From assembly GCA_947490615.1 (NCBI GenBank), contig CANLHK010000015.1, forward strand, positions 1-52,529: a stretch of 52,529 nt of DNA, read 5' to 3'. The position numbers were made by a program, and so were the translations under genes. Positions 27,424-43,689 of the stretch are shown piece after piece. Source of the stretch: Planctomycetaceae bacterium. Lineage in GTDB: Bacteria > Planctomycetota > Phycisphaerae > Phycisphaerales > SM1A02. Positions within the stretch are counted from its first letter, which is position 1, and the number at the start of each line of letters is the position of its first letter. The notes under the pieces were generated by a model that made no database searches, was not told the origin of the DNA, and was given only the letters and a program-made list of their open reading frames with translations.

Positions 27424-28437
27424 GTGCAGACTGTGAACCTCGTGAAATCCGTGACCACCACCGTGACCACCACCGTGCCCGCACTTCCACGCAATCCGCA
27501 CTTCGATGATGGTCGCGTGGTGTGGAGCGACGAGTTCGCGGGGCAGTACCAGCCCGTCGCCTACGACCAACAGTTTGATGACCAGTGGCGGCTCTTTCTT
27601 GAGCGCAAGACGGGCTTCTGCGATCACACGGGCGTTGAGACCAGCGACGAGTACATCGACGATCGCATCCTCGAACTCACGGGCGTGCGCGATGTTCTCT
27701 GGCGCAAGAAGTGGGGGAGCGTGTTGGCGCCGTTGCTTGCGCGACTCTCGGGTCGCCTTGCGCGACAGGAGCGACGCGGCGTGGGCGGTCGTCTTTGGCT
27801 CGAGCCGAAGTTTCCCGTCGACTTCTTTCAGAACAAGCGTTGCCTTGACGCTGGATGTGGCGCAGGTCGTTGGACCAAGACGCTCGCGTCTCTTGGCGCG
27901 CGCATGAAGTCGATCGATGTTTCCCGCCACGGTCTTGAGTCGACCAAGCGCTTCAACAACGATGTCGAGAAGTGCAGCATCTTCGAACTTCCCACGCGAG
28001 CCGAGTTTCAGCGCGCCTTCGACTTCACGCTCTGTTGGGGTGTCGTCATGTGCACCCACGATCCTCGCGCTGCGTTTGACGCTGTGGCTGCCACGGTGAA
28101 GCCTGGCGGCTCGCTCTACTTGATGGTCTACGCGCCGACCTACCACACTTCTCCTCAAGTGTTGGAGTGGCGCGCGCGTTACCACCGCGAGTGCAGAACC
28201 TTCGAAGAGAAGTTGCAGTTCGCCTACTCGGTGGCGGATCGCCCCGAGAACGCGATCAACTTGCTCGACATGCTGAACACCTTCTACAACTGGACGATTC
28301 CGCGCGCCGTCTGCGCCGAGTGGTTCCGAGTCAACGGCTTTGACGAAGTGGTACTGCTCAACCGAAACGAGCCCAATGCGTGCGGACTGCACATGCTCGG
28401 GCGACGCGCACCCGCGGCCGTGAGCACTCACGCATAG
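27424..28437 (+). CDS. Class I SAM-dependent methyltransferase
   Basis: A 337-residue protein with the SAM loop LDAGCGAGRWTKTL, preceded by about 135 residues with the pattern seen in methyltransferases of surface-glycan loci, and motif IV FDFTLCWGVVMCTHDP. No ATG starts the frame near the homology. GTG at 27424 is chosen, with GTG alternatives at 27433, 27442 and 27451; TACTCT at 27410-27415 ends 8 nt before 27424. Two copies of GTGACCACCACC follow and encode a short Thr/Val repeat. Its last 10 nt overlap the convergent glycosyltransferase gene. Methylation of a sugar hydroxyl is likely, but the acceptor is unknown. Confidence 0.85.
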   Translation: MQTVNLVKSVTTTVTTTVPALPRNPHFDDGRVVWSDEFAGQYQPVAYDQQFDDQWRLFLERKTGFCDHTGVETSDEYIDDRILELTGVRDVLWRKKWGSVLAPLLARLSGRLARQERRGVGGRLWLEPKFPVDFFQNKRCLDAGCGAGRWTKTLASLGARMKSIDVSRHGLESTKRFNNDVEKCSIFELPTRAEFQRAFDFTLCWGVVMCTHDPRAAFDAVAATVKPGGSLYLMVYAPTYHTSPQVLEWRARYHRECRTFEEKLQFAYSVADRPENAINLLDMLNTFYNWTIPRAVCAEWFRVNGFDEVVLLNRNEPNACGLHMLGRRAPAAVSTHA

Positions 28438-29855
28438 AGCGCGTGCGTCGAACGCACCACGGCGTCGAGCCCGAAGCGATCGGTCGCAAACGCGCGCGCC
28501 TCGGCGGAAAACTTCGCATGTAAGGAGTCGTCGCGCAGTAAGCGCACGAGACTGTCGGCCATCGCGCTGACGGCACCAATGGGATGGAGAAACCCCGTGG
28601 CGCCGTCGACAAAGGTCTCGGGTGCGCCGCCCGCATCGGTCGCCACCACAGGGCAACCGAGAAACTGCGCCTCAATCAGCACATTGGGGAGCCCCTCGAC
28701 GCGCGAGCAGAGAAGCGTCGCCTGCGCTGCTGCAAAGAGCGTCGCCACATCGCTGCGGCGTCCCAACAGTTGGAAGGACGCGCCGAGATCCTCCGTCGCC
28801 CGAGCGAGTTCTTCGCGCATCGGTCCATCACCAGCGATGACAAAGAGCGTGTCGGGAAGTTCGCGCAACACCCGACGCGCGATGTGCGCGAAGTGGTGCG
28901 GCATCTTCTCGTCGCCGATACGAAAGACTCCAACGACCAACCGTCGACCCGTGGCGCCGAGTTCCGTGCGCAGCCGAGCCACGCTGACTGCATCGGTCGC
29001 GGCGAACTGCGCAGGATCAAGCCCGTTGTGTACGACCTCGATGCGTGAGCTCTCCACGCCCATCCATTGCGCGTAGTCGAGCGCTCCCATCTTCGAGTTC
29101 GCAGCGATGCGCACGCGCAGACTCGTCGCGAGTGCTTGGTACCAAGGCAACATCCACGGGCGATGCCACGCGGGGAAGTGTGGTGGGGAAAGCGATCGCA
29201 GCGAGAGAATGACCCGCGGCGCGCCTGCCGCCAATCCCGCTATGCCGCCGACAATGTTGGTGTGGTCGAGCCACGCGTGCACGATGTCGGCATCGGCTGC
29301 GAGGATTTCACCCGCGCACTCCATCGCTTCGATGCCGAGTTCAGGTGGGATTGCCAGCAGTCGCGAGCGCAGCGCCGCGTCGGTGCGAACTCTGGTGAGC
29401 GCCGTGGAAGACGCCGCATCGCCCAGTGCGCGCACCGAAACGCCAGCAGCTTCGAGGACTGGTCGAAAGTGCGCGGCCTCACCGACAGAGGGACTGAAGG
29501 TGACGACGGAGTGTGTCGCAAGGCCGCGCGCGTGCGCTGCGGCAACATAGGTGGCCAATTGTCGCTCCGCACCACCAGCGGCGAGGCTTCCGATGATGTG
29601 GACGACGCGTGGCTTGGTCGGTGCGGGACGCGAGGAATCAGCGACTGCGGTGTCGATGTGCCTGATCGCTTCCATCGCGGGTCGTTCAACGCGCGCGGGA
29701 TACATCGTTCGGTCGTACGCCGCGACCGCTGCAGGTCCAGCAAACTTGGCAAGTCGATGACCGATGCCGCGCAAGGCGTGCGCTGCGGGAGAACGGTCCT
29801 GCACGATCGCTTCCGAGTACGGTGGAACGATCGCGCGTGTCGAATCAGCGCTCAT
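28428..29855 (-). CDS. GT4-family glycosyltransferase
   Basis: A 475-residue glycosyltransferase. After an N-terminal extension of about 80 residues, the GT4 acceptor motif appears as VVHIIGSLAAGGAERQL, then VLLSRVEGLPNVLIEAQFLG-like donor-binding sequence (CSRVEGLPNVLIEAQFLGCP) and VVATDAGGAPE. It is a close paralogue of the adjacent gene at 29852-31333, with the same extension and motif order. The ATG at 29855 overlaps the upstream stop by 4 bp (ATGA), so the two are coupled. Together they may add consecutive similar linkages. The 3' end overlaps the convergent methyltransferase gene by 10 nt. Confidence 0.9.
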   Translation of the reverse strand: MSADSTRAIVPPYSEAIVQDRSPAAHALRGIGHRLAKFAGPAAVAAYDRTMYPARVERPAMEAIRHIDTAVADSSRPAPTKPRVVHIIGSLAAGGAERQLATYVAAAHARGLATHSVVTFSPSVGEAAHFRPVLEAAGVSVRALGDAASSTALTRVRTDAALRSRLLAIPPELGIEAMECAGEILAADADIVHAWLDHTNIVGGIAGLAAGAPRVILSLRSLSPPHFPAWHRPWMLPWYQALATSLRVRIAANSKMGALDYAQWMGVESSRIEVVHNGLDPAQFAATDAVSVARLRTELGATGRRLVVGVFRIGDEKMPHHFAHIARRVLRELPDTLFVIAGDGPMREELARATEDLGASFQLLGRRSDVATLFAAAQATLLCSRVEGLPNVLIEAQFLGCPVVATDAGGAPETFVDGATGFLHPIGAVSAMADSLVRLLRDDSLHAKFSAEARAFATDRFGLDAVVRSTHALYA

Positions 29856-31333
29856 CGACGACCACCGTGGGCCGCGGGATAGCACGCCAGCGATTCGGCC
29901 ACCATGCGATCGAGCCCGAAGCGCTCCGCGACAAAGGCACGCGCACGCAGGGACATCCGTGCTCGCAGCGTGTCGTCGTTCAAGAGTTCGAGGGTGCGCT
30001 GCGCGAGGAGTGCGGTATCTCCAACGGGGCAGAGGTAACCGCTCGCGCCATCGTCCACGGCATCAACAGTTCCACCGCCACGCGTCGCGACGACAGGGCA
30101 ACCGAGTGCTTGCGCTTCAAGCAGCGCATTGGGCGTTCCCTCTTTGCGTGATGCGTGCACCACAACCTCGGCGATCGAGAGGAGCGCAGCGACATCGTTG
30201 CGACGACCGAGGAGTCGAAACCGCGTGGGATCAATCGACGCAGCATGCGCTTCGAGTGCCGCGCGCATCGGCCCATCACCCGCGACCAACACGCACGCGT
30301 CTTCACGCGCGCGCAAGATTTCCTTCGCGGCCTGTGCGAAGTCCATCGGCTCTTTCTCTTCAGCGATGCGAAACACCCCAAGGACGAGGCGTCGCCCGTC
30401 CAACCCAAGTTCGGCGCGCAGCGTGTGCAGCGCGCCCTCATCGGGGACTTGCATCGCGCGAGGATCGAATCCGTTGGGGATGATCGTGAAGCGATCACGG
30501 GAAACGCCCATCCATTGGGCGTAGTCCTCGGCGCCGACGCGAGAGTTGCCGATGAACCGCACGCGTGGCGATGTTGCGAGCCGTTGGTACCACGCGCGGA
30601 AGTAGGGCGCGTCGATCATGGGAAAGTTCGACGGGTTCACATTGCGCGTCGAGAGGACGATGTGCGGCACGCCTGCGAGAAGCGCCGCAATCGCACTCCA
30701 GATGTTGGCGTGGTCGAGCCATGCATGGACGACATCAGGTCGGAGCCGCAAGAACTCGCCTGTGAGTTCAGTCACCCACGGGCGGTAGCGCGGGTCGACT
30801 TGCGTCAAGCGCTTCTGGAGCGCGCGATCGTTGCGCAACGCTTGAATCGCCTGTGGATCGTGCGTTGCACCAGCCACTTCGACGGTCACGCCGCCTTCCA
30901 AGGCAAGCGGCAGGTAGTGCGCTGAGGCGCCAACCAGTGGATTGGTCAGCAGGATGCGCGCTTCAGCTTTTCCGCTGCGAACAGTTTCGCGCGCGAGGTA
31001 GACGAGTTGCCGCTCCGCACCGCCTGCGGCGAGCGATCCGATCACATGCACGACGCGGAGTTGTGCGCGCGGCGGGTTGGTGACGACAGGAATCGTGAAG
31101 AGTTCCTGCGCGAGGCCATCGTCGTCCTGCATGGCCGCCGTCGCCGTCCAAAAACGCTGGCGAAACTGCTGGAGAGTTTGGGCGCGAACACCGAGGACGC
31201 CGAGCGCGCGGGTCGAGCCGATCCATGCGGCACGGCCAAGAAGGTGCGGCGCGCGCTGCCACTTCATCGGCGAGAAGACCCTCGATCCGTGGGGCATGCG
31301 GAGCTTGTCAAGTTCGTCCGAGTAGCAACCCAT
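29852..31333 (-). CDS. GT4-family glycosyltransferase, paralogue of the adjacent downstream gene
   Basis: A 493-residue protein with VVHVIGSLAAGGAERQLVYL, HASRKEGTPNALLEAQALGC and VVATRGGGTVDAVDDG, the usual GT4 order. The N-terminal extension (about 110 residues) is Arg/Trp-rich and without recognised motifs. The start is uncertain: ATG at 31333 (MGCYS) is used because it clears the divergent methyltransferase gene at 31390, but ATGs at 31297 or 31267 are also possible. The 56 bp between the divergent starts must contain promoters for both. Tandem duplication explains its similarity to the next gene. Confidence 0.88.
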   Translation of the reverse strand: MGCYSDELDKLRMPHGSRVFSPMKWQRAPHLLGRAAWIGSTRALGVLGVRAQTLQQFRQRFWTATAAMQDDDGLAQELFTIPVVTNPPRAQLRVVHVIGSLAAGGAERQLVYLARETVRSGKAEARILLTNPLVGASAHYLPLALEGGVTVEVAGATHDPQAIQALRNDRALQKRLTQVDPRYRPWVTELTGEFLRLRPDVVHAWLDHANIWSAIAALLAGVPHIVLSTRNVNPSNFPMIDAPYFRAWYQRLATSPRVRFIGNSRVGAEDYAQWMGVSRDRFTIIPNGFDPRAMQVPDEGALHTLRAELGLDGRRLVLGVFRIAEEKEPMDFAQAAKEILRAREDACVLVAGDGPMRAALEAHAASIDPTRFRLLGRRNDVAALLSIAEVVVHASRKEGTPNALLEAQALGCPVVATRGGGTVDAVDDGASGYLCPVGDTALLAQRTLELLNDDTLRARMSLRARAFVAERFGLDRMVAESLACYPAAHGGRR

Positions 31334-31389
31334 GGAGGAGACCCGCGACGGACGAGTGGGTTTGTCCGCGCACGCTAGACTGAATCGCG

Positions 31390-32934
31390 ATGCTAGCAGG
31401 TCCCGCGCACAATCGCCGCATCGAAGAGGTGCTTGAGGCATTCGAGTCGCTTGGTTTCCCGCGTTCCGTCGTCACACAATGGTCAGTGCCCGCGCGTGAC
31501 GCGTGTGATCTCGCTGACGCACTTCCCGCGCAGCTCGGCGCGCGTGTCCTCGAGATCGGCACCTTTGTCGGAACCAGCGCGCTCTTCATGTTGCTGACGC
31601 GGCCTGACCTCGAAGTGCACACGGTTGATCCAAACTTTCCACTCGAGATCGAGTTTGACGCGATGCACTGCGGCTTCCGCAGCGCTGACCTCACGACGCG
31701 CACGCAAGAAGTCGCGGCGCGTGCTGCGGAACTTCTCGGTGTGCGAGCGCGGTTGCACCTGCACCAAGGTGGGTTCGCGACCGAAGCGACCTTCGCGGGA
31801 GAGAACGCGCGCGCCGTGGCCATCGGCGAAGCGGTCATCGCGCAGCATGGGCCGTTTGACGCGGTGTTTCTCGATGGACTGCACTTCGAAGAGGCGGTGC
31901 TCGCGGATCTTCGCCTTGCTGCGACCGCGGTGCGTGAGGGCGCGCCGATTCTGTTGCACGACACGATCGGCTACTGGGGATCGTGCGTGCGCCGCGCGGT
32001 GTGTCGCTTTCTTGAAGAGCGTCCCGCGTTCAGTTTCTCGCACGCTCCCTACGCAGACCTGTACCGCAGCATCGGGCGGCTCACGACACGGCCTGCAGAG
32101 AGTGACGCGGTCGCGCTGCGCGCCGAGCGTTCCTACGGCGCGGCATTGCCAAACTTCTACGAGTACACGGCGCGCGCGCTCACGGAGACCTTTGGACCGC
32201 TTGAAGCTCAGGCGCACGATGAGTTCTCTGCACCATTGGTCGCACGGCTCCACACCAAGGATGGTGGTGCGCGCTGCGCCGTCCTGCTCGGCACACTCGA
32301 CGAGCTGATGCCCGACGCCTCGCATGCGAAGCTCGTGGCCGTCGCCTCCTCAGCCGATGTCCTTGTGTTGGGATTGACGCCGCCTGGCGAGGCGCACGCT
32401 GCAGGAACTTGGTCGCGACCGTTGGCCGCGCGCGTGGCAGCGATCGAAGCGCTGGGCTTCGACGCGTTTGATGTCGTCGCGCCGTTTCTCGAACCGTTTT
32501 CATACGCACTCGGAAGTGGATGTGTCCTGCCGTGCAGCACCACCTTTCTCAGCACCACACTGGTGGCAGTGCGCCGAGGAACTCGCGCGTGGCAACAGTG
32601 TGCGTCGCGCGACCAAGTGCGAATCACCGACGCGCGTCGCTTGGAAGATGCTCGCACGCAACGCGTGCATGATCGCGCCATGCTCGGGCGATTTCGCGCC
32701 GACCTTGCGGCGTCGTCCGACAGTCTCGCCCAGTGTGACGCGCTGCTGCAGCGCACCAACGCTGATGCGACGGCGTTGCGTTCAGCGCTCGAACTCGCGC
32801 AGCGCGACGGTCCACTCTTGCGTGAACGCGAAGAGCAGTTGGCCAGCGTCTCTTCGCGGCTTCAACACATGCTGGACTGGCGTGTCCACCTCGGTCGCCA
32901 CCACTTCTGGCGGCGTCTTGGTGCACGACTCTGA
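31390..32934 (+). CDS. SAM-dependent methyltransferase with C-terminal coiled coil
   Basis: A 514-residue protein. Residues about 1-210 are a class I methyltransferase of the Methyltransf_24 type: LEIGTFVGTSALFML (motif I), VHTVDPNFPLE, then FDAVFLDGLHFEEAV and ILLHDTIGYWGS. Residues about 215-400 form a second alpha/beta region of unknown role. Residues about 410-500 have heptad-like hydrophobic spacing with many charged residues (RADLAASSDSLAQCDALLQ, LREREEQLASVSSRLQHML), a predicted coiled coil. TAGACT (31376-31381) ends 8 nt before the ATG. A methyltransferase joined to a coiled coil in a Wzm/Wzt locus recalls WbdD, which caps O-antigen and sets its length; that comparison is architectural, not based on sequence identity. 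Confidence 0.85.
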   Translation: MLAGPAHNRRIEEVLEAFESLGFPRSVVTQWSVPARDACDLADALPAQLGARVLEIGTFVGTSALFMLLTRPDLEVHTVDPNFPLEIEFDAMHCGFRSADLTTRTQEVAARAAELLGVRARLHLHQGGFATEATFAGENARAVAIGEAVIAQHGPFDAVFLDGLHFEEAVLADLRLAATAVREGAPILLHDTIGYWGSCVRRAVCRFLEERPAFSFSHAPYADLYRSIGRLTTRPAESDAVALRAERSYGAALPNFYEYTARALTETFGPLEAQAHDEFSAPLVARLHTKDGGARCAVLLGTLDELMPDASHAKLVAVASSADVLVLGLTPPGEAHAAGTWSRPLAARVAAIEALGFDAFDVVAPFLEPFSYALGSGCVLPCSTTFLSTTLVAVRRGTRAWQQCASRDQVRITDARRLEDARTQRVHDRAMLGRFRADLAASSDSLAQCDALLQRTNADATALRSALELAQRDGPLLREREEQLASVSSRLQHMLDWRVHLGRHHFWRRLGARL

Positions 32935-32947
32935 GTGATGACGAGAC

Positions 32948-34507
32948 TCAGGGAACGACGACCGACCACTGGGTGTGGGCGTTGCGGATGAATCCGCCGT
33001 TGGTCTTGCTGAGCCCGTTCATGATCCAGCCGTTCATGTCGCCGTTGGCGGTGTTGCGCCAGAGCAGATCCGACTTGCCATCGTTGTTCACATCGCGCAC
33101 CGCTTCGATGCGCCACGAGAGCGCAATGCCTTGGTGCATGACGCCACCCGACGCGCGCATGGTTCCATCCATGAGCCAGCCCGTCACGATGCCGAGCGTC
33201 TGGTGACGCCACACGATGTCGGCTTTGCCATCGCCCGAGAGGTCCGCAACGCCAGCGACCATCCAACTTGACGCCACGGCGCCCGCGACATTCGTGACGG
33301 CACTTTGCTCGAGGATCTGAAGGCCATCCATCAGCCACACGCTCATGACGCCGCTTGACGCGCGCCACAGAATGTCCTGCATGCCATCGCCGTTGAAGTC
33401 GGCGATCGCTTCGCAGACGCGACCGCTGGCGTTTCCGATCGTTCCCTCGCTCATGCGCACGAATCCCTGCATGAGCCAGCCAGTGACTTCGCCTGTGGAG
33501 CTGCTGCGAAAGAGCAGATCGCCGCAGCCGTCACCCGAAAGATCACCGATGCCAAGGCACTGGTTGCTTGCGGGGAGTCCGACGGAGAGCGGTGCTTCTT
33601 CGACAATCTCAACGCCGTCGGTGAACCACGCCTGCATGCGACCTTGTGCGTCGCGCCAGACGATGTCGGTCGAGGCGTTGCCGTCGAGATCACCGAGTCC
33701 TGCGACGGTGTAGCCGACGGGAACAGCATCAGGAAGCACCGCGCCGTACTTGCGGCCGAGTCCCTCCATCAACCACATGGCGACTTGGCGCGAAACAGGG
33801 TTGTAGAAGACGATGTCCGAGTTGCCGTCGTCATCGAGACGATCGACGACATACGGAGTGGCAGCGCCCGTGGGGTAACGCATGTCGCGCGCTTGCGAGG
33901 CAAAGGCGACTGCGCCATCGCGGGCGTAGCCGAGTGTCGCGTCGAAGTTGAGTTGGAGTCCCGCTTGGAAACTCTCTTCGGTTACGACGAACACGCCAAG
34001 CAGAACCTTGAGGTCGCTTCCCGCGGTGCCATAGCCATTGGTCGGCGGCATGTTGTACCAACCCGCTCCGTCGCCAATCGCGCTGGCGCTGGTGAACTTC
34101 GCGTCGACGAACGAGGGGTCTTCCAGCGTGCCATTGAACATGTCGCCTTGCTCAGCACCAATCGTGACATAGGTGTCGTAGCGCCACGCCTCTCCTGGCG
34201 GAAGAAAGCCCAGCGGGAGAAAGCTCGCGGGGATCTCATCGTCGACGCTGTCGGCCTGGAAGAACACGGGGACAGGCTCACTCACCACTGGATTGGAGAG
34301 CGACGCAGCGACATTGAAGACGGTGAGGATGCGATCGAGTGGATTGTCGAAGGTCGCGTAGACCTCGACCACGTGGTAGGTGTGCAACTCACCAGCAACG
34401 ACATACCGAGCGCTCCCAAAGCCCGTGAATTCAGCCACGGCGGTGGACGCGGGCAGGGCGATGAGCGAGAGCAACGAAAGCGCGGCGCGAGTACGAGTCG
34501 ACATCAT
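32948..34507 (-). CDS. Secreted protein with six VCBS/FG-GAP-type repeats (paralogue 1)
   Basis: A 519-residue protein with a Sec signal (hydrophobic LSLLSLIALPASTAVA). Residues about 25-235 form an unrecognised beta-rich domain starting FTGFGSARYVV. The rest is six repeats of about 48 residues with the pattern GDL-x-GDG-x-x-DI-x-WR-N-x6-W-x-M-x-G, ending WNGW-type GDMNGWIMNGLSKTNGGF. Asp-rich loops suggest calcium binding in a beta-propeller-like fold. The start is ATG at 34507; an ATG at 34504 follows directly, and the longer frame upstream lacks a signal. It is the last of four same-strand paralogues. There is no intrinsic terminator, and 13 bp separate it from the convergent methyltransferase gene. 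Confidence 0.85.
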   Translation of the reverse strand: MMSTRTRAALSLLSLIALPASTAVAEFTGFGSARYVVAGELHTYHVVEVYATFDNPLDRILTVFNVAASLSNPVVSEPVPVFFQADSVDDEIPASFLPLGFLPPGEAWRYDTYVTIGAEQGDMFNGTLEDPSFVDAKFTSASAIGDGAGWYNMPPTNGYGTAGSDLKVLLGVFVVTEESFQAGLQLNFDATLGYARDGAVAFASQARDMRYPTGAATPYVVDRLDDDGNSDIVFYNPVSRQVAMWLMEGLGRKYGAVLPDAVPVGYTVAGLGDLDGNASTDIVWRDAQGRMQAWFTDGVEIVEEAPLSVGLPASNQCLGIGDLSGDGCGDLLFRSSSTGEVTGWLMQGFVRMSEGTIGNASGRVCEAIADFNGDGMQDILWRASSGVMSVWLMDGLQILEQSAVTNVAGAVASSWMVAGVADLSGDGKADIVWRHQTLGIVTGWLMDGTMRASGGVMHQGIALSWRIEAVRDVNNDGKSDLLWRNTANGDMNGWIMNGLSKTNGGFIRNAHTQWSVVVP

Positions 34508-34684
34508 GATGGGCATCCAGCGCGCCAAGCGGACGCAAGGCGCGAGAATGGATCGGCCCATCGCGGAGGCCGTTTGATCGCGAGATCGCGGATGCCACTC
34601 AAATCGCGGGGTGGCAACGGGCGTTCGGGGTGTTTGATCTATGCGGGCGAGCCCGATAGCGCGACGCAGCAGCAACAGGAGCGC

Positions 34685-34726
34685 TGACGAAAACGAAACG
34701 GGCGTCGCCGTGTGGCGACGCCCGTT
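34685..34726 (-). terminator. Intrinsic terminator downstream of paralogue 2
   Basis: A 13-bp stem (34697-34709 with 34714-34726) around a GTGT loop (ACAC on the minus strand), followed on the minus strand by a T-rich TTTCGTTTTCG tail. Confidence 0.85.
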
Positions 34727-34754
34727 GGATGTGTCGTGCTGTTTCCGCGATCGC

Positions 34755-37472
34755 TTAGCGCGCCGCGACCTGGATCTTGCTCACCACTCCCGCGGTCGAG
34801 ACGATCTCGACTTCCCACTTCGGCGAGCCCGCTTGCTCGTCAAGTTCAACGGAGTGCGGCTGCGCGCCCGCGTTGGCCGCGAGCACCTGTGACACGGCGC
34901 TGGTCGCGGGAATCGTGACAAGGGTGTAGACGCTCAGCGCGTCGCTGTACTTGTCCAGTTGCACCGCTGTGGGTGTCCAGGAGGTGTTGCTGATGACCGC
35001 CAGCGTGCTCGCATTGACCGCGATGCGCACGAACTTGCTGTCACTCGCGCGCCACTGGAGCACCGCGACAAAGGTCGTGCCGCCTTCGAATTCGACTTCG
35101 GCTTCAAGGATCGGGAGGTTGCTCACGGCGAGTGCTGCGTTGATCGCGGAGTTGAAGGCGCTTCCCGAAGAGGTTTCGTTGCCACCGCCGCCGTTGCCGC
35201 CATTGCCACCGCTGCTGCCACCGCCGCCACCCGAACTGTTGTCGTCGTAGTCGTCGTCGTTCGAGTCATCGCGGTTGTCATCGTTGCCGTTGCCATCGCG
35301 ACCGTGGTCATCGTTGTAGTCGTCGTCGTTGAGCATCGACCAACCGAAGGCGACATTCTTGATGAACGAGCCGCTGGTCTTGATCAGGCCAGTCATGAGC
35401 CAGCCATTGACATCGCCGTTGGTCATGTTGCGCCAGAGGATGTCGTCGGTGCCGTCAGCGTTGAGATCGCCAGCGGATTCGATGCGCCAGTTCAGGCCGA
35501 TTCCTGCGTGCATCGATCCACTGGATTCCATCGCTGCACCAGCCATGATCCAGCCCGAGACAGCGCCCGAAGTGACATGACGCCAGACGATGTCGTCGTC
35601 GCCGTCGCCATCGAGATCCGCCATCGCTGCGATGCGCCACGCTGGGAGCACAGCGGCCGCATTGGCGATCGCGGTGTCGGTGACGAGCGCAAGGCCGTTC
35701 ATCATCCATGCGCGCATCTGGCCAGCGTCGGTGCGCCAGAGAATGTCTGAGCGTCCGTCGCCATCGAGATCACCGAGGCCTGCGAAGGTGAGTCCGATCG
35801 AGTTGCCGATCGCTCCACCCGTGGTCTTGGTGCCGCCGCTCATGAGCCAGCCGTTGATCTGACCTGTGAGGGTGTTGCGCAGAAGGACATCGGCCTTGCC
35901 ATCGCCTGAGATGTCTCCGAGCGCGAGGTACTGCCACTCGGCCGCGACACCGTTGGAGATCGCGCGGTCTTCGAGCACGCTCAAGCCACTGAGGCGCCAG
36001 AGGCGGAAGACGCCCGTGGTCTTGTGACGGAAGAGCACTGCACTGCGGCCATCGCCGTAGAAGTCGCCCGCGCCGTCGTACTCGTAGCTGGTCCCGACCG
36101 AGCCAGGCATGATGCCGCCCGACTCACGGACGAGTCCATTCATGCTCCACGCTGCGATGTTTCCCGATCCAGGACTGAACCACAGCACATCGCTGCGACT
36201 GTTGTCGTCGATGCTGGTGTGGCTGTAGTCGAGTTTGTAGTGGTAGCCAGCGCCGCGATTGGCGGCGTTGTTGTTCGTCGTCGGCGCGCCAAGCATGACG
36301 CGCTCACCAGCGAGCGCGATCGCGCTGCCGAAACCGCCGAGTGTGGAACCCGTCGTCGCCGCGAGTTTCGCACCTTCTTGCCAAGTTCCAGTGCTGAGAC
36401 GGCGGAAGACGCGAGCGCTGCCCGCATCCGAGACGCCACGCACAGAACTGAGTGGCGCACCAATGGCCACGCGGTCGTCGGCTGCAGCCAGTGCAGCGCC
36501 AAACGCGTCCCCAACAGCGCCGTCACTCGCATTGAGTCGTGCCGCGAAGGGCCAACTCGTATCCGTCGCGCGCTGATAGACAAACGCAGCACCCGAGTCG
36601 ACGCTCGCGTTCAACGCGTGCGGTGCTCCGACAAACGCCCAATCACCCGCAAGGGTGCTCGAGAGCGCCACCGAAGTTCCAAAGCCAAGTGCTCCCGCTT
36701 CGCCCGAACCAAAGGCGACCGCTTGCGGCCAGGATCCACCCGTGTTCCGGAAGAGGTACGCCGATCCTGCGCCTGCTTGGCGCGCAGGTGCGCCGATCAA
36801 CGCACGCGACGAACGAGTCGCCACGGCCGCGCCGAATCGATCGCCAGCGCTTCCACCAGCGGCGGTGAGCTTTGCCTGTTCGCTCCAGGTGTCGGCTGAG
36901 GTGTTTCGAAACACATACGCAGCACCACGATTCGCGGCGCCGATGCCGTCCGCGCCAGGAGCGCCGACGACGACGGTGTCACCCTTCATGGAAATCGCAG
37001 CGCCAAACTCGTCACCAGCAACACCGTCACTGGCGGTGAGCTTCGCGACCTGCGTCCAACTCGCGCCAACCTTGCGAAAGACATAGGCGGCGCCTTGATC
37101 GGCGCTGCTCGTTCCACTTGCGGCGGGAGCACCGACGACAACGAGGCTGCCATCGAGCGAGACTCCGCTGCCGAAGCCATCGCTTGCAGCGGCGTCGCCC
37201 GCACTCAGCGTCGCAACGATCGCCCAGGTGTTTCCTGAGCCGCGTTCGAAGAGGGTGACCGCGCCCGCGCCCGACTGCGCGCTCGGCGCACCGAAGGCAG
37301 CGAGGCCGCTGTCAGAGGCCACCGCAGAGCCGAACAACTGGCTTGAGGCGGTCGAGGTTGGTAAGAGGAGAAGGCGCTCGTTGCGCGTTACGGTTTCTTG
37401 TCGCGCAAACACCGGGGCTGCGACAAGAAGAGACAGGACAACTGCACGACTCAAGTGATTCTGGTTGTTCAT
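34755..37472 (-). CDS. Secreted double-propeller protein: seven FG-GAP repeats, six VCBS-type repeats and a PepSY-like tail (paralogue 2)
   Basis: A 905-residue protein with a signal peptide ending near PVFARQ and a strong GAAGGAG before the ATG. Residues about 30-410 carry seven integrin-type FG-GAP repeats (LFGSAV, GFGSGV, EFGAAI, RFGAAV, GFGTSV, AFGAAL, GFGSAI), consistent with a seven-bladed propeller. Residues about 420-710 are the six-repeat cassette shared with its neighbours. An Asp/Asn-rich linker and a Gly-rich linker (about 715-770) follow, then a C-terminal domain with PepSY-like pattern (VLAANAGAQPHSVELDEQAG, KWEVEIVS). Calcium-dependent adhesion or matrix binding is plausible but unproven. 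Confidence 0.87.
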   Translation of the reverse strand: MNNQNHLSRAVVLSLLVAAPVFARQETVTRNERLLLLPTSTASSQLFGSAVASDSGLAAFGAPSAQSGAGAVTLFERGSGNTWAIVATLSAGDAAASDGFGSGVSLDGSLVVVGAPAASGTSSADQGAAYVFRKVGASWTQVAKLTASDGVAGDEFGAAISMKGDTVVVGAPGADGIGAANRGAAYVFRNTSADTWSEQAKLTAAGGSAGDRFGAAVATRSSRALIGAPARQAGAGSAYLFRNTGGSWPQAVAFGSGEAGALGFGTSVALSSTLAGDWAFVGAPHALNASVDSGAAFVYQRATDTSWPFAARLNASDGAVGDAFGAALAAADDRVAIGAPLSSVRGVSDAGSARVFRRLSTGTWQEGAKLAATTGSTLGGFGSAIALAGERVMLGAPTTNNNAANRGAGYHYKLDYSHTSIDDNSRSDVLWFSPGSGNIAAWSMNGLVRESGGIMPGSVGTSYEYDGAGDFYGDGRSAVLFRHKTTGVFRLWRLSGLSVLEDRAISNGVAAEWQYLALGDISGDGKADVLLRNTLTGQINGWLMSGGTKTTGGAIGNSIGLTFAGLGDLDGDGRSDILWRTDAGQMRAWMMNGLALVTDTAIANAAAVLPAWRIAAMADLDGDGDDDIVWRHVTSGAVSGWIMAGAAMESSGSMHAGIGLNWRIESAGDLNADGTDDILWRNMTNGDVNGWLMTGLIKTSGSFIKNVAFGWSMLNDDDYNDDHGRDGNGNDDNRDDSNDDDYDDNSSGGGGGSSGGNGGNGGGGNETSSGSAFNSAINAALAVSNLPILEAEVEFEGGTTFVAVLQWRASDSKFVRIAVNASTLAVISNTSWTPTAVQLDKYSDALSVYTLVTIPATSAVSQVLAANAGAQPHSVELDEQAGSPKWEVEIVSTAGVVSKIQVAAR

Positions 37473-37565
37473 GGGGGCTCCTTCAGAGCGAGTTCAGGCC
37501 ACGTGACCAAGAACTCCGTCGGGGCAAAGGAGCATCGAGGTCGACTCTGGATACCACCATGCTCG

Positions 37566-37604
37566 AAAAAAAACGACGCGCCGCATGTTCATGGGGCGCG
37601 TCGT
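37566..37604 (-). terminator. Intrinsic terminator downstream of paralogue 3
   Basis: A 10-bp stem ACGACGCGCC/GGCGCGTCGT (37573-37582 with 37595-37604) and a 12-nt loop, followed on the minus strand by a run of eight T (37566-37573). It is the strongest terminator in the window. Confidence 0.92.
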
Positions 37605-37656
37605 GTAAATCGTGCGATTGACTGCAGTTATGCGTTCCAGTCTCCGGAGGAATCGG

Positions 37657-40092
37657 TCAGGGATTGGCGATGCGCCAGTCCAGCGTCGCGCTGCGAACAA
37701 AGGCCCCTGAGCGCTTCACGAGGCCGTTCATCAGCCACGCGTTCACATCGCCCGAGGCATTGTTGCGCCAAACCAGATCCGACATGCTGTCGCCGTCGAG
37801 GTCGACCAGCGCGGCCATCGTGTAGCCAAGCCCAACCGAGCTCGTAATCGTCGCTCCCGAAAGCTTCGTGAGGCCATCCATGAGCCAGCCGTTGAGCTGC
37901 CCCGTCGTGGTGTTGCGCCAGAGCAGATCCGCCTTGCCATCGCCGTTCATGTCTGCCATCCCCGATGGCGCCCAGTCACTGAACACGGGGCCAGCGCCCG
38001 TGACATCGGCCTGCGTTTGGATGGTCAGTCCATTCATGAGCCAGCCGCTCACCACATTGGTCGTGTTGCGCCAGAGGAGATCGGCATCACCATCAGCGTC
38101 AAGGTCGGCAGAGCCGAGGTAGGTCAGTCCCGTCGTCGGCCCAATCTCACCGCTGTCGAGTTTGATCAGCCCATGCATGAGCCAGCCGAAGACCTTGCCC
38201 GTCGTGGCGCTCTTCCAGAGGATGTCGTCGTTGCCATCGCCATCGAGGTCAACCACGCCAAGCATGCGGTATTCGGAGGGGACGACGCCCGTGATGTCGC
38301 CGCTCTCGGCGACGGCCGTTCCCGTGAGCAGCAGGGCGCGCACGGCACCAGTCGTGAGATTGCGCATCACGATGTCCGAGCGACCATCACCGTCGAGATC
38401 GCCGATTCCACCAAAGTCGTAGCCCGCGGTCAGTCCTTCAGCGAGGTAGCCACCCGCGGTGCGCGTCAGGCCATCCATGAACCACACGGCAAACTGCCGC
38501 GAGCCGGGATTGATCCACACGATGTCGCCCTTGCGGTCGCCATCAAGGTCGCCAATCGGCGCGAGTTGGCAAGTGTCAGGAATGCCGTCGCCGTTGATGT
38601 CCGCGATGTCGCCGTCGGCGAGTTCGCAGGAGTCAGGAATCTCGTTGCCGTTGCAGTCGGCCGAGTCGTCGTAGTACTGGAAGGTCACCTTCGCGGCCGA
38701 AGTTGGGCACTCCACACTCGAGACCAGCGTGCTGGCGGTGAGTTCAAAGGTCGCGCTGCCGTTGTCGAGCATCGCGTTGAAGAGCGCCGAGGGGATGAAC
38801 ATCGTCGACTTCTGGAAACTCGCGGGGCAGTTCACGCCGCCTTGCAGGAAGACATAGTCGATCACCTGACCATTGAAGGTCAGCGTGAGATACTCGCCGG
38901 GCGAACCGATGTCGGCCTTGACCTCGACTTCGACCGTGACATCACCGACGGCGTCGGGGAGATCCGTGCCCGTCACGGTCACGGTGCTCGCGGACGAGAA
39001 CGGCGCAACCGTCGAGCTCTCCTCGATGACGGTGCCCACTTCGCAGGTGTCGATGCGATTGTCAGAGTTGCAGTCGAGTGCGGGATCGACCGCGATCTGC
39101 ACGGTGTCGGGTTCATCGTTGCGATCGCAGTCGAGCGCGAACATCTGACCCGCGAAATTCAGGCCGATTTGGAAGTCCGCAAAGAGCGACGCGGCTGGCG
39201 TAGCTGGCGGAGTATCAAGGTCATTCGAAGTGTTGCCCCACAGGACGGTCTCACCATCGGAACGACGCGCGCCGAGCGTGTAGCCATGCGCGCGCAGCGA
39301 GGAATAGACCTCGGCACCCGCGAGCGGCGGGACAACCTGCTGCAAGAGCGAGTTGTCACCGACAACTTGCACGGTGCCATCGGACATCAGGAACGCCGTG
39401 GTGTTCCAGCCGCACTTGATGTTGATCACGAACTCCGCGCCCACGGGAGTCGGCTGCGTGAGCTCGCCCTCGGTGTTGTCGCCCCACAGAAACACCGTCG
39501 AGTCGCCCCGCAGTGCTGCGGCATGGTCAAGCCCGCCCGCGAAGTCTTCCGCGCGCCCACCGAGAACGGGGATCGTGGTCTGGCCCGCGGCGTTGTCACC
39601 CCACGCCAAGAGATCACCGTTGATGTCGCGCGCGATCGTGAAGTTCGCGCCGCAAGTGACAGCGTCGTAGGGCAGGATGTGGACAGGCACATCACACTGA
39701 CCAAAGGTGTTCGAGCCAACGCAGACGATGACGCCGCCACTGCGCACGAGCGCCGTGTGGTCTGAACCCGCTGCAACCGAGAGGTAGCGCAACGCTCCTG
39801 CGAGCGGCGGCACCGTCGCTTGGCCTGAGGTGTTCAGGCCCCAACCGCGCACCGTGAGGCCTGGTGCGACAATCGCCACGCCATGGTTGTCGCCGAGCGC
39901 AAACGCGCTGAAGAACTCGGTGTAGGCCGGATCGAGTCCGTCCTCTGCGCTCGAGGTGCTGAGGCCCCAACCGAGGATCGGCGAAATGTTGTCGGCCGAG
40001 GCCGAGGCTGATGCAGCGCCAGCCAGAAGTGCGGCCAAGGCCACACGCACCGAGGCGGGCTGGTTCGGGCGGAGATTCGGTTGATTCGTCAT
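37657..40092 (-). CDS. Secreted protein with RCC1-like and six VCBS-type repeats (paralogue 3)
   Basis: An 811-residue protein with signal sequence (VALAALLAGAASASASA). Residues about 40-340 contain RCC1-like repeats (GWGLNTSGQATVPPLAG, GSNTFGQCDVP, WGDNAAGQTTIPVLG, WGDNTEGELTQP), consistent with a propeller. Cysteine-containing DCNSDNRIDTCE and DCNGNEIPDSCE motifs flank a beta-rich domain of about 140 residues; this motif style is common in planctomycete secreted proteins. The last 290 residues are the six-repeat cassette. The start is ATG at 40092, because the upstream frame has no signal sequence. It has its own terminator, so it is probably monocistronic. Confidence 0.87.
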   Translation of the reverse strand: MTNQPNLRPNQPASVRVALAALLAGAASASASADNISPILGWGLSTSSAEDGLDPAYTEFFSAFALGDNHGVAIVAPGLTVRGWGLNTSGQATVPPLAGALRYLSVAAGSDHTALVRSGGVIVCVGSNTFGQCDVPVHILPYDAVTCGANFTIARDINGDLLAWGDNAAGQTTIPVLGGRAEDFAGGLDHAAALRGDSTVFLWGDNTEGELTQPTPVGAEFVINIKCGWNTTAFLMSDGTVQVVGDNSLLQQVVPPLAGAEVYSSLRAHGYTLGARRSDGETVLWGNTSNDLDTPPATPAASLFADFQIGLNFAGQMFALDCDRNDEPDTVQIAVDPALDCNSDNRIDTCEVGTVIEESSTVAPFSSASTVTVTGTDLPDAVGDVTVEVEVKADIGSPGEYLTLTFNGQVIDYVFLQGGVNCPASFQKSTMFIPSALFNAMLDNGSATFELTASTLVSSVECPTSAAKVTFQYYDDSADCNGNEIPDSCELADGDIADINGDGIPDTCQLAPIGDLDGDRKGDIVWINPGSRQFAVWFMDGLTRTAGGYLAEGLTAGYDFGGIGDLDGDGRSDIVMRNLTTGAVRALLLTGTAVAESGDITGVVPSEYRMLGVVDLDGDGNDDILWKSATTGKVFGWLMHGLIKLDSGEIGPTTGLTYLGSADLDADGDADLLWRNTTNVVSGWLMNGLTIQTQADVTGAGPVFSDWAPSGMADMNGDGKADLLWRNTTTGQLNGWLMDGLTKLSGATITSSVGLGYTMAALVDLDGDSMSDLVWRNNASGDVNAWLMNGLVKRSGAFVRSATLDWRIANP

Positions 40093-40230
40093 GTTGATTT
40101 CCAGTGCCGTGCGCGAGTGCGCAGGGTTTCTGTATCGGCCCGACCCCGAGGTTTGCCACACCCGGACAGGGGGTGGACGCTGATTTCGCGCGGTCGGTTC
40201 AGATTGGGGTCCGCAGCCGTAGCGAATCGG

Positions 40231-40271
40231 CAAAAACAAAGCCGCCCTTCGTCGCGGAGACGAAGGGCGGC
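40231..40271 (-). terminator. Intrinsic terminator downstream of paralogue 4
   Basis: A 13-bp stem GCCGCCCTTCGTC/GACGAAGGGCGGC (40241-40253 with 40259-40271) and a 5-nt loop, followed on the minus strand by TTTGTTTTTG. Confidence 0.9.
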
Positions 40272-40300
40272 ATGGGTCTAGAAGAGTCTGTTGAGGTCGG

Positions 40301-41842
40301 TCAGCGGATGTTGGTCCAGGAGGTCGCTGCGGAGCGGATGAACCCGCCCGAGTCCTTGAGGAGGCCGTTCATCAGCCAGCCGTTGACATCACCGTTGGCA
40401 TTGTTGCGCCAGAGGAGGTCACGCTTGCCGTCTCCGTTGAGATCGGGGGTCGCGATGATCTTCCAGCCTGCGCCGACGGTCGTCGAGATGTAGCCGCCGG
40501 TGCGACGGTTCAGGCCGTCCATCAGCCAGCCCGAGACGAGTCCGAGTGCTTCATGGTGCCAGACCACATCGGCGCGGCCGTCTGCGTCGAGATCTCCGAC
40601 GCCAGCGACCTTCCAGCCGTTGCCTGGAGCGCAGGCGTTGCCGATGGGGCTCTGCGTAGCGATCGCCAAACCGTCCATCTGCCAGCCGTAGACCGCGGTG
40701 CCCGCGCCCTGCCAGAGGAGGTCGTCCTTACCGTCGGCGTTGAAGTCGCCGACGCCGAGGAACTTGAGTCCGCTCGACGCTCCGATGGAGCCGCCCGCGA
40801 GCTTGACCAGTCCGTCCATGAGCCAACCGCGGACTTCGCCCGTGGAGCTGTTGCGGAGGATGCAGTCGGCGCGACGATCACCATTGAGGTCGCCGAGCGC
40901 GATGATGTCCCATGCTGCCTCGACATTGCCAGAGATGTAACCCTGCTGCGCAACGCTGAGATTGTTCATGACCCACGCCACGAAGCGGCCGGTGGACGCT
41001 TCGCGCCAGACGAGGTCCGAGCGGCGATCGGCATTGAGGTCGCCGGTTCCGCGCGGAGAAAGTCCACTCGGATCGAGCGAGGTGTAGCCGCCCGCGACGC
41101 GGACGAGTCCGTCCATCGTCCACAGGGTCGACTTCGCGGCGCCAGAGTTGAACCACGCCACATCCGACTTGCCGTCGAGGTTGAAGTCGTCGCGCACGAA
41201 CGAGGCAGCCGCTGCCTGCGGCGCGTCGTACTGCACATGGTCGATGTTGATTGGGATGATCGAGGAGATGGCGATCGTGTCGACGCCGATGGCGTTCTCG
41301 AGACCGATGAACACATCATCGGTGGTGACATTCGCCTCGCTGTAGATGTCGAAGACCATCGCTTCGGTCGTCGAATCCGAGTAGTACACGGTGACGGTCA
41401 CCGGAGCAGGAACGCCCATTCCAGAGGAGTCCGTCACGACGAAACCGACGCGCGTTGGTGCGCCGCCGAGGTCCGCCGCCGAGAAGGAAACTGACACGAA
41501 GCCTGGATTGAACGGGTCCAAGGTGCCGAGCATCAAGCTCTTGCCCTGGGCGCCGTTTCCGTCCACCGACGCATCATCAGCATCGACAGAGTTTCCAGCA
41601 ACGACGGCGGTCGGACCCGTGAGCGTCATGCCGATGGGCGTGAGGCCTTCGAAGTCATCGACCAGCAGCGTGGCGTTGGGGAAGGTGCTATCCGGCAGAG
41701 CGCCGTAGCCAATCACTTCAGTCCAAATGGCCCCGCCGGCGCCGCCAGCGAGGGCGGCAGATGCCGCGAGTGAGCACGCAAGGCCTGCAGCAGCAAGGCC
41801 GGCGTGACGAACAGCGTTCGCACTGAGATTCCAAGTTTTCAT
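40301..41842 (-). CDS. Secreted protein with six VCBS-type repeats (paralogue 4)
   Basis: A 513-residue protein with a signal peptide (hydrophobic LAAAGLACSLAASAALAGG) and a Shine-Dalgarno AGAGGAG before the ATG at 41842. Residues about 35-225 are a beta-sandwich-like domain (LLVDDFEGLTPIG through TTDDVFIGLENAIGVDTIAI), similar in style to jelly-roll domains of planctomycete surface proteins. The remainder is the six-repeat cassette ending DLLWRNNANGDVNGWLMNGL. It is first of the four-gene array in the direction of transcription, 302 bp downstream of a sigma-54 activator gene. Confidence 0.86.
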   Translation of the reverse strand: MKTWNLSANAVRHAGLAAAGLACSLAASAALAGGAGGAIWTEVIGYGALPDSTFPNATLLVDDFEGLTPIGMTLTGPTAVVAGNSVDADDASVDGNGAQGKSLMLGTLDPFNPGFVSVSFSAADLGGAPTRVGFVVTDSSGMGVPAPVTVTVYYSDSTTEAMVFDIYSEANVTTDDVFIGLENAIGVDTIAISSIIPINIDHVQYDAPQAAAASFVRDDFNLDGKSDVAWFNSGAAKSTLWTMDGLVRVAGGYTSLDPSGLSPRGTGDLNADRRSDLVWREASTGRFVAWVMNNLSVAQQGYISGNVEAAWDIIALGDLNGDRRADCILRNSSTGEVRGWLMDGLVKLAGGSIGASSGLKFLGVGDFNADGKDDLLWQGAGTAVYGWQMDGLAIATQSPIGNACAPGNGWKVAGVGDLDADGRADVVWHHEALGLVSGWLMDGLNRRTGGYISTTVGAGWKIIATPDLNGDGKRDLLWRNNANGDVNGWLMNGLLKDSGGFIRSAATSWTNIR

Positions 41843-42144: not shown

Positions 42145-43689
42145 TCAGCCGACTTCGCCCACAGCATGCAGTCCAAGATCGCGCATCTTCCGATAAAGCG
42201 TGGTGCGGTTGATGCCGAGACTCGCCGCGGCGCGCGATCGGTTCCAGCCGTGCTGAGCGAGCGCCGCCAAGAGCGCCGCGCGCTCTGGATCGCGCATTGC
42301 GTCCGAGAGCGTCTTCACAGACTTGTCGTCTGGAGTGAGCGGCGCTCGCGAGATCGGAATCGGCGCCGCATCGTCGGTGCGGGTTGGGGCGTTGGCGGTC
42401 ACGCTTGGGGTTCCCGTCGCAGTCCGCTTCTCCGCCGACACGACGCGCTCAGGAAGATGGCGTGCATCGATGTAGGCATCGTCACACACGATTGTCGCGC
42501 GTTCTATGGCGTTCTCGAGTTCGCGCACATTGCCGGGCCACGGGTAGCGACGCATCGCGGCGATCGCAGCGTGGGTGAAGCCAAGGATGGTGCGCCCGAG
42601 TTCAGCGGTTTTTTCCGCTAGAAAGTGGCTCGCCAAGGCCATGGTGTCGTCAGGACGCTCACGCAACGGCGGCAACTCGATGGGCAGAACATGCACGCGA
42701 TAGAAGAGGTCTTGACGAAATCGACCCTCTTCGACCAACCGCTCGAGCGGCTGGTTCGACGCGACAATCACGCGCACATCGACTTCAATCGTCGCGTCGC
42801 TGCCGACAGCTTCGAACTTGCGCTCTTGAAGAACTCGCAGCAATTTGAGCTGCATCGTGGGCGAGGCCGAGTTGATCTCGTCGAGGAAGAGCGTGCCGCC
42901 ATCCGCCGCGAGAAAGCGGCCCTTCTTGTCGGCGATGGCGCCCGTAAACGCGCCCTTGATATGTCCAAAGAGCTCGCTCTCCAATAGTGTTTCAGGGATC
43001 GAGCCGCACGCGAGTTCGACAAAAGGCATCGACGCTCGTGGTCCTGCGCGGTGAATCGCGCGCGCCAAGAGGCTCTTGCCCGTTCCCGACTCTCCGTGAA
43101 TGAGCACGGTTGAGCGCACGCGGCTCGCTGCGCGCGCCAACTCCAAGGCTCGCGCCAGCATCGGGTCGCTGCCGACCATCGCGTCGAGTCCGCCACCAGG
43201 GGCGTGAGCGGCATGTGGAGTTGCGCTTGCTTCGAGTACGGCGCGGTTGGTCGCGCGCGCGACGGCTTGCGCGAGTTCGGTGCCGCCAAAGGGTTTCATG
43301 AGCACATCCGCCGCGCCCGCGCGGATCCATTCGATGGCTCGAGAGGCTGTAATGTCGGTACCGCTGGCGATCACGCTCGCGCGTGGAGTGGCGGCGCGGA
43401 CTGACCTGAGGAGGTCACTGAAATCGCGGTCGCGTCCACCAAGATCGGCCACGAGGACCCCGCCGTCAGCGCTTCGCAGCGCCACCATCGCCTCGGAGAC
43501 CGTGGCGACGATCTCGCAGGGGTAGCCCAACGCGCCAAGCGAGCTGCGAACGGCTGCCGCGGCATACGGATCGGGATCCAACACGAAAACGCGCACCGAC
43601 TCGTCGGCCGCGGGGGTGTTGGCGTGGGGAAACCGTTCGCTGGCCAAAGGTGGGACTCCCAAGTTCTGCCGCTTCCATCGGTTCGACAC
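42145..43689 (-). CDS. Sigma-54-dependent response regulator (NtrC family)
   Basis: A 514-residue three-domain protein. The receiver domain (about 32-145) has the phosphoacceptor Asp near residue 82 in VLVADLGG and the conserved Lys in MKPFGG. The AAA+ domain has Walker A GESGTGKS, the sigma-54-contacting GAFTGA loop (GHIKGAFTGAIAD), Walker B TLFLDEI and a sensor-region RFRQDLFYRV. The C-terminus has a Fis-type helix-turn-helix (WNRSRAAASLGINRTTLYRKM). It would activate sigma-54 promoters when phosphorylated. The intact GAFTGA argues for true sigma-54 dependence. No sensor kinase gene is adjacent, so it is an orphan regulator here. The start is GTG at 43689. Confidence 0.93.
   Translation of the reverse strand: MSNRWKRQNLGVPPLASERFPHANTPAADESVRVFVLDPDPYAAAAVRSSLGALGYPCEIVATVSEAMVALRSADGGVLVADLGGRDRDFSDLLRSVRAATPRASVIASGTDITASRAIEWIRAGAADVLMKPFGGTELAQAVARATNRAVLEASATPHAAHAPGGGLDAMVGSDPMLARALELARAASRVRSTVLIHGESGTGKSLLARAIHRAGPRASMPFVELACGSIPETLLESELFGHIKGAFTGAIADKKGRFLAADGGTLFLDEINSASPTMQLKLLRVLQERKFEAVGSDATIEVDVRVIVASNQPLERLVEEGRFRQDLFYRVHVLPIELPPLRERPDDTMALASHFLAEKTAELGRTILGFTHAAIAAMRRYPWPGNVRELENAIERATIVCDDAYIDARHLPERVVSAEKRTATGTPSVTANAPTRTDDAAPIPISRAPLTPDDKSVKTLSDAMRDPERAALLAALAQHGWNRSRAAASLGINRTTLYRKMRDLGLHAVGEVG

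Follow-up and report, generated by a model that had tools for sequence, protein, structure and literature searches.

The VCBS superfamily of β-propellers (PF13517) has as its supercluster motifs DxDxDG in loop AB, G and W in loop CD, and GW in loop DA', and the aromatic residue of loop DA' is tied to the sugar pockets of tachylectin-2 and PVL (Pereira and Lupas, 2021; PMC8023676). VCBS-like propellers are typically linked to carbohydrate recognition and also to protein contacts (PMC9218822). UmbA4 of S. coelicolor ends in a six-bladed propeller domain with teichuronic acid, a cell-wall polysaccharide, bound in the canonical propeller-lectin sugar pockets, and the toxin particle is weakened when Trp668, Tyr551 or Asn633 is changed (PMC13274773). 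Here we describe four consecutive genes, A to D, at positions 32948-41842 of a 52,529-nucleotide stretch of planctomycete DNA (the window; contig CANLHK010000015.1 of assembly GCA_947490615.1, Planctomycetaceae bacterium), each of which encodes a cassette of six repeats of this type joined to a different N-terminal part, or head.

With moderate confidence we favor the explanation that these genes belong to an old paralogous family in which a complete six-bladed VCBS propeller, probably exported and putatively glycan-binding, was duplicated whole and paired with unrelated heads. An ancestral propeller gene would have been duplicated at this locus, its copies would have gained unrelated N-terminal domains before the genus diversified, and each pair would then have been passed on as a unit. 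Judging by its DxDxDG motif, the loop linking strands A and B may hold a metal ion such as calcium, the propeller would be a putative multivalent glycan-binding module, and the heads would add a second, protein-specific activity. We propose glycan binding because the loop aromatics of the PVL and tachylectin-2 sugar pockets are kept and because the closest solved relative by fold binds teichuronic acid. Propellers are often regenerated from single blades (PMC9218822), and this family shows another course, in which a finished six-blade ring was copied whole and kept in blade register on five unrelated heads. The genes and their cassettes are as follows; expect values (E) are from profile scans, and pLDDT is the predicted local distance difference test score.

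40301..41842, minus strand: gene A, 513 residues; signal-peptide-like N-terminus (by eye), head of ~180 residues, cassette up to the C-terminus
40304..41206, minus strand: cassette of A, six repeats, residues 213-513; whole-protein FG-GAP_3 match at E 2.4e-17; AlphaFold2 pLDDT mostly >90
37657..40092, minus strand: gene B, from ATG at 40092 (open from TTG at 40239); RCC1-repeat head with two DCN...C stretches, then the cassette; RCC1_2 match at E 2.7e-28
37660..38568, minus strand: cassette of B, six repeats, from repeat cutting and comparison
34755..37472, minus strand: gene C, 905 residues; seven FG-GAP_2-type repeats (by eye), cassette, tail; FG-GAP_2 match at E 2.9e-63
35331..36233, minus strand: cassette of C, six repeats, residues 414-714, internal in the protein
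32948..34504, minus strand: gene D, from ATG at 34504 (open from TTG at 34675); beta-rich head without family assignment, then the cassette
32951..33859, minus strand: cassette of D, six repeats; AlphaFold2 pLDDT 80-98 (blocks of ten)

The original prediction, made from the sequence of the window, had named four consecutive genes at these coordinates, and they are indeed there, all on the minus strand and in the transcription order A, B, C, D. It had also stated that each gene ends with six repeats. Six repeats are present in each, but in C about 190 residues follow the cassette. To compare the repeats, we cut them at the metal loop, so that the length of the last repeat depends on the C-terminal cut. 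Lengths by position in A-D were 49-50, 49-50, 48, 51-52 and 50 residues for repeats 1-5, and apart from the last repeat they are the same at each position except for A1 (49 vs 50), D2 (49 vs 50) and D4 (52 vs 51). Of the 24 repeats, 18 had their closest counterpart at the corresponding position of another protein and two (A2 and C2) within their own protein; the remaining four (B1, B2, B5 and D2) best matched a different position in another protein. Mean identity was 42% between repeats at the same position, 34% within one protein and 33% otherwise, and none of 20,000 label permutations reached the observed same-position score. Repeats 1 and 2 are the least similar between proteins (33%), and the whole cassettes of the window are 38-45% identical to each other. 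These data bear out the earlier claim that the cassettes match repeat by repeat. The opposite pattern, a repeat 4 closer to the other repeats of its own protein, was looked for and not seen, as all four copies of repeat 4 had another repeat 4 as their best match.

We then extended the comparison to relatives. Forty regions together with the window gave 77 matching proteins, 66 of which have an essentially complete cassette; the other 11, with partial or rearranged matches, were left out, as were open frames with at least five unknown residues, which removed the C-type gene of the genome G031. The 66 cassettes come from 17 genomes (16 of the genus, plus G031 from another genus) and fall into five head families (A 16, B 13, C 11, D 18, E 8). 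Among 395 repeats (of 396 segments, one short segment being dropped), 313 had their best match in another head family at the same position, the lowest share being that of repeat 2 (40 of 66). The nearest same-position repeat of another family was closer than the nearest repeat of the same protein in 385/395 cases. When means were compared instead, this was so in 367/395, and the latter comparison is the fairer one because more sequences are on offer in the other families.

The register is also visible in the details of single blades. Repeat 4 was predicted to have a shortened turn followed by a longer loop in all four proteins, and this is the case: the turn is one residue shorter and the following loop two to three residues longer. 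Across the 66 cassettes the short turn of repeat 4 is present in 59 and the long following loop (at least 30 residues) in 61. Short turns also occur outside repeat 4, namely in repeat 2 of D and, among the 66 cassettes, in six copies of repeat 2 (6 of the 18 D-type cassettes), nine of repeat 5 and five of repeat 6. Repeat 3 has its own signature, with a spacing to the next repeat that is two residues shorter (26 residues) in 63/66 and three shorter in the other three, and it mostly lacks the terminal aromatic. Six blades were counted in 60 of the 66 proteins and four or five in the other six. Together, the position-matched repeats of A-D and the register kept across the 66 cassettes support duplication of the whole cassette, as originally proposed.

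To follow the descent of heads and cassettes, we built a maximum-likelihood tree of the 66 cassettes. It needs 6 head-label changes, where the minimum is 4 and the mean of shuffled labels is 39.3, and cassettes with heads of the same family cluster across species instead of with others from their own genome. The B and C cassettes each form one side of a well supported branch, which supports a single origin of the head-propeller pair for these two families. The other families are fragmented (4 changes for A, 2 each for D and E) at deep forks with weak support, some of them long-branched, and for these single origins are not shown, nor do starred branches rule them out. The locus is conserved as well. 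A sigma-54 regulator gene lies beside A in 13 of the 14 relatives whose stretch extends past A, the exception being G031, and further neighbours from the window recur at the relatives' loci. The order A-B-C-D is found in five genomes including the window's own, in G008 split over two contigs. Four other genomes (G001, G002, G006 and G015) have A-C-D together, with the RCC1-headed gene inverted a few genes away beside an MFS gene. Because the label changes are near the minimum and the locus is conserved, the head-cassette pairs must be old; heads and cassettes are old partners that were inherited together. Ongoing swapping of heads was considered and rejected, as no supported case was found with 6 label changes against a least number of 4, with the reservation that weak forks divide A, D and E.

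In G012, the RCC1-headed gene lies beside an MFS transporter gene on a separate contig. The regulator in the window, a sigma-54-dependent response regulator at 42145-43689, is directly upstream of A and is a possible regulator of the cluster.

The gene-conversion alternative bears on the same tree. Neighbouring paralogues in tandem could exchange sequence, and the repeat match would then reflect conversion between them rather than whole-cassette ancestry. We regard this as very improbable, since the cassettes group by head family across species (6 label changes vs 39.3 when shuffled) and the register is kept also with family E and with copies on other contigs. Grouping of the cassettes of one genome to the exclusion of their orthologues was not seen in the 66-cassette tree.

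We also compared how well heads and cassettes are conserved, using 11 genomes and families A-D, with heads cut to the last 230 (A, D) or 500 (B, C) residues, head pairs with fewer than 120 aligned residues to be dropped and two D-like copies elsewhere left out. Mean identities of head and cassette were 0.49 and 0.53 for A, 0.51 and 0.50 for B, 0.63 and 0.57 for C, and 0.59 and 0.56 for D, and cassette identity exceeded head identity in 42/55, 14/45, 11/55 and 7/45 pairs, respectively; local alignment of the head parts favours the better part, so that head identities may be flattered. A cassette more constant than its heads is thus seen for A only. The picture of a modular system in which variable heads are joined to a constant C-terminal unit finds no support in these results, as the pairs are inherited together, the heads are about equally conserved, and the unit is internal in C. 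A constant cassette with variable heads is a fair description of the paralogues within a genome but not of how they evolved.

The same prediction had named FG-GAP repeats only among the N-terminal parts, but the cassette is no separate class from FG-GAP propellers. FG-GAP_3 (PF13517) scored 46.1 to 70.2 bits in all four proteins against a curated cut-off of 26.9, and FG-GAP (PF01839) was also above its cut-off in all four cassettes in the Pfam scan. By these profile matches the cassette is itself a predicted VCBS/FG-GAP-type (PF13517) propeller. An NCBIfam scan of A-D gave sub-threshold matches only, all of them in the cassettes. The heads are another matter. That of B consists of RCC1 repeats and that of C of FG-GAP_2 repeats, six stretches of which pass in the Pfam scan vs seven counted by eye, and the heads of A and D had no Pfam match at E 0.1. 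The statement that the N-terminal parts are unrelated holds, with no blastp match between families at E 1e-4 among the 66 heads. The Tc toxin component B propeller (PF12256, TcdB_toxin_midN) was considered for B and D and taken as metal-loop similarity only. It passes the whole-protein cut-off in both (30.6 and 29.9 vs 24.8 bits) by summed short pieces, no single stretch passes, and the best covers ~20 of 181 profile positions at a metal loop; PF12256 is itself a VCBS-type propeller.

AlphaFold2 models were made for A (29-row alignment) and D (33-row alignment). By blocks of ten residues, cassette pLDDT was 81-96 in A and 80-98 in D, with most blocks above 90 in both, and parts of the heads and the signal regions were poor. 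There are four strands per repeat, 24 in the cassette of A and 23 plus a last one of two residues in D. No strand precedes the metal loop of the first repeat in either model, and a short strand lies at the very C-terminus. This strand, at the W-x-x segment, would supply the missing first one, and the ring most likely closes by the usual velcro, as read from the strand list and not from viewed coordinates. The models support the view that the six repeats form one six-bladed unit, as had been suggested, and the best match is a solved protein with a six-bladed propeller. This match, UmbA4 (9oee_A), came first for both models in VIA-align (Z 30.1 and 30.4, root mean square deviation 2.6, 304 residues), with ROS1 (Z 16.5) as the second hit for A and PVL-type lectins (Z 16.4) for D. 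Foldseek lists for A and D contained generic propellers with modest scores. The structural match lists of both models were filled by the propeller and gave no fold for the heads.

The motifs agree with this fold. The cassettes carry DxDxDG, the loop CD G and W, and the loop DA' aromatic. This aromatic is W in 53, 62, 47 and 63 of 66 cassettes in repeats 2, 4, 5 and 6, respectively; it is often Y or F in repeats 2 and 5 of family B, varies after repeat 1 and is absent from most cassettes after repeat 3. At 22 of the 24 metal-loop sites, 55-66 of the 66 cassettes have Asp, Asn or Glu, and at the other two 46 and 38 do. Column counts were made for families A-D, with E left out. In these, 31 columns are occupied to at least 75% by one residue that is identical in all four families, and they are metal-loop and core positions plus the terminal W of repeats 4 and 6. 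In two further columns 75% is reached by residues that differ between families, and all remaining columns are below 75% in at least one family. Putative pockets with a shared aromatic base and drifting loops fit these sequences better than one fixed ligand would, though drift alone would look alike.

As a comparison with the closest known systems, A-D belong to the same Pfam family and have the same motifs as the VCBS superfamily, and like its prokaryotic core members (PMC8023676) they combine apparent signal sequences with accessory domains. The difference is that signatures specific to single blades of the six persist here across five head families, and the part of PMC8023676 consulted describes no such planctomycete family. 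The likeness to UmbA4 (PDB 9oee; PMC13274773) is one of fold (Z ~30), six blades and metal-loop repeats. The lectin position of UmbA is C-terminal, as is that of the cassette in three of the four window proteins. There, however, a trypsin-like N-terminal domain precedes varying C-terminal lectins (PMC13274773), and here one propeller type follows varying heads; the Pfam scan of A-D at E 0.1 lists no trypsin family. A Streptomyces plasmid VCBS protein, tried as a route to the UmbA4 sequence and its sugar-contact residues, matched a secreted esterase instead. The PVL-type lectins (PDB 2bwr, 4up4 and 5mb4) resemble the cassette in superfamily, loop aromatics and fold (Z ~15-16). PVL-type lectins are single-domain fungal proteins. 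They differ further in having seven blades (PMC8023676), and their root mean square deviation to the models is ~4. Bacterial integrin-type FG-GAP propellers (PMC3192720) have metal loops in common with the cassettes, and the C head has seven FG-GAP-type repeats by eye; by contrast, the cassette blades are six and of PF13517 type, and their integrin sequence matches are insignificant.

Several points weigh against the proposed glycan-binding propeller family. The UmbA4 alignments begin inside the heads (residues 182 and 58), so that not all 304 residues need be propeller. UmbA4 is not among the best 50 Foldseek matches listed for A and D and appears only in the second-look alignment. Cassette profile searches of the PDB did not contain UmbA4 at E up to 1 and 5, and identity to it is 15-19%. 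The columns shared by A-D are mostly framework and metal loop, so a single common ligand is not indicated. In addition, neither a fold nor a function could be assigned to the heads of A and D.

A different role for the propeller, in line with the original modular picture read in functional terms, would be that of a retention or docking module, a constant anchor by which the heads that do the work are attached to a partner protein or to the envelope of the cell itself. The same propeller on five unrelated heads, C-terminal in 4/5 head families, would suit such a module, as would the terminal W of repeats 4 and 6 that families A-D have in common; glycosyltransferase and methyltransferase neighbours in part of the genomes would fit binding of a self-made polysaccharide. 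The cassette, however, is not consistently more conserved than the heads, no loop column other than that W of repeats 4 and 6 is common to A-D at 75%, the unit is internal in C, and in some relatives the cluster has no glycosyltransferase genes next to it. We therefore hold this role to be rather unlikely. Somewhat more doubtful is a protein-binding or purely structural propeller, with which the family would act, much like integrin-type propellers, in contacts between cells or in building a matrix. VCBS-like propellers do join protein-protein interactions (PMC9218822), and a PDB sequence search with the cassette gave nearly all integrins, with integrin alpha chains as the best weak matches (E 0.02); but these matches are insignificant and cover short stretches around the metal loops, the pocket aromatics are kept, and the best structural match is a lectin. 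A further extension of the lectin idea, which we consider quite unlikely, is a genus-wide secreted lectin set in which one locus retains several old six-bladed paralogues with diverged pocket loops for several glycans and unrelated heads with different tasks; it would be a planctomycete counterpart of lectin diversification in umbrella particles, with the varying part at the opposite end. Under the explanation that we favor, an old family of whole-duplicated, putatively glycan-binding propellers, A-D are candidate glycan-binding proteins of uncultured planctomycetes at a conserved locus. They are otherwise an ordinary protein family, a well delimited addition to the VCBS propellers with no new mechanism.

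Signal-peptide-like N-terminal stretches are present in all four proteins, read by eye and with no predictor, which agrees with the earlier description of the proteins as secreted; the proteins are probably exported. No surface anchor turned up in the Pfam and NCBIfam scans of A-D, which were not an aimed anchor search, and the earlier label of surface proteins has no support from them. The remaining features of the region are the following.

34755..35330, minus strand: tail of C; linker rich in D/N and in Gly, followed by a weak PepSY-like end
40241..40271, minus strand: terminator-like hairpin just after A; 13 pairs, 10 of them G-C, T-rich tail
34697..34726, minus strand: terminator-like hairpin just after C; 13 pairs, 10 of them G-C

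The tail is a regular part of C-type proteins, measuring 176-200 residues in all 11 of those among the 66. Its PepSY match scored 15.9 bits in the window and 23.6 and 20.7 in two relatives, all below the 24-bit cut-off. A scan of the region for terminator-like sites on both strands gave 12, against 5.9 expected by chance, and a promoter scan gave one site, equal to the chance expectation. Because the hairpins after A and C are strong, A-D may not form one transcript. The stretch adjoining D (28428-32934) holds two glycosyltransferase genes and one methyltransferase gene, which are kept in some relatives and replaced in others.

Matches at E 1e-20 were found in 21 of 61 genomes, namely the window's own, 15/15 others of the genus, 3/21 from other genera of the family and 2/24 from other families of the order. 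These gave 80 matches, of which three weak ones from G045 were not taken further. Strong matches in the window's genome are at these four places only (E 2.4e-147 or better), the next being at 5.8e-7. Six weaker cassette-profile matches (L005-L010) in this genome range from E 5.8e-7 to 3.9e-4. No account of this cassette family was found in the titles and abstract starts of the open-licence PMC papers listed for planctomycete FG-GAP, RCC1 or VCBS-repeat proteins.

The suggestion to look for other heads on the same cassette led to a fifth family, E (eight loci, L072-L079), and to a D-like sub-group elsewhere, but not to a supported head exchange. In E-type proteins the open frame runs for 544-628 residues ahead of the cassette, or for 886 in one case, and two E heads that were scanned gave one sub-threshold DUF7453 match. 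No E-type protein was found in the window's genome, which has only A-D. In three genomes an additional cassette protein at another place has a D-like head (L085, L086 and L087), and the cassettes of these proteins form a long separate branch.

A wider contig scan with the cassette gave 20 loci, 17 of them under titles of planctomycetes or uncultured bacteria; the other three, which are weaker, have Burkholderiales or Acetobacteraceae titles. Two contigs titled Candidatus Kuenenia stuttgartiensis (L014 and L016) carry the cluster or an E-type gene, and their near relatives are titled Planctomycetota or Planctomycetaceae bacterium, so the titles seem inconsistent. Under a Burkholderiales title, L027:6010-9195 has many FG-GAP_3 repeats together with a hydrazine synthase alpha middle domain (PF18582, E 6e-11, above the cut-off).

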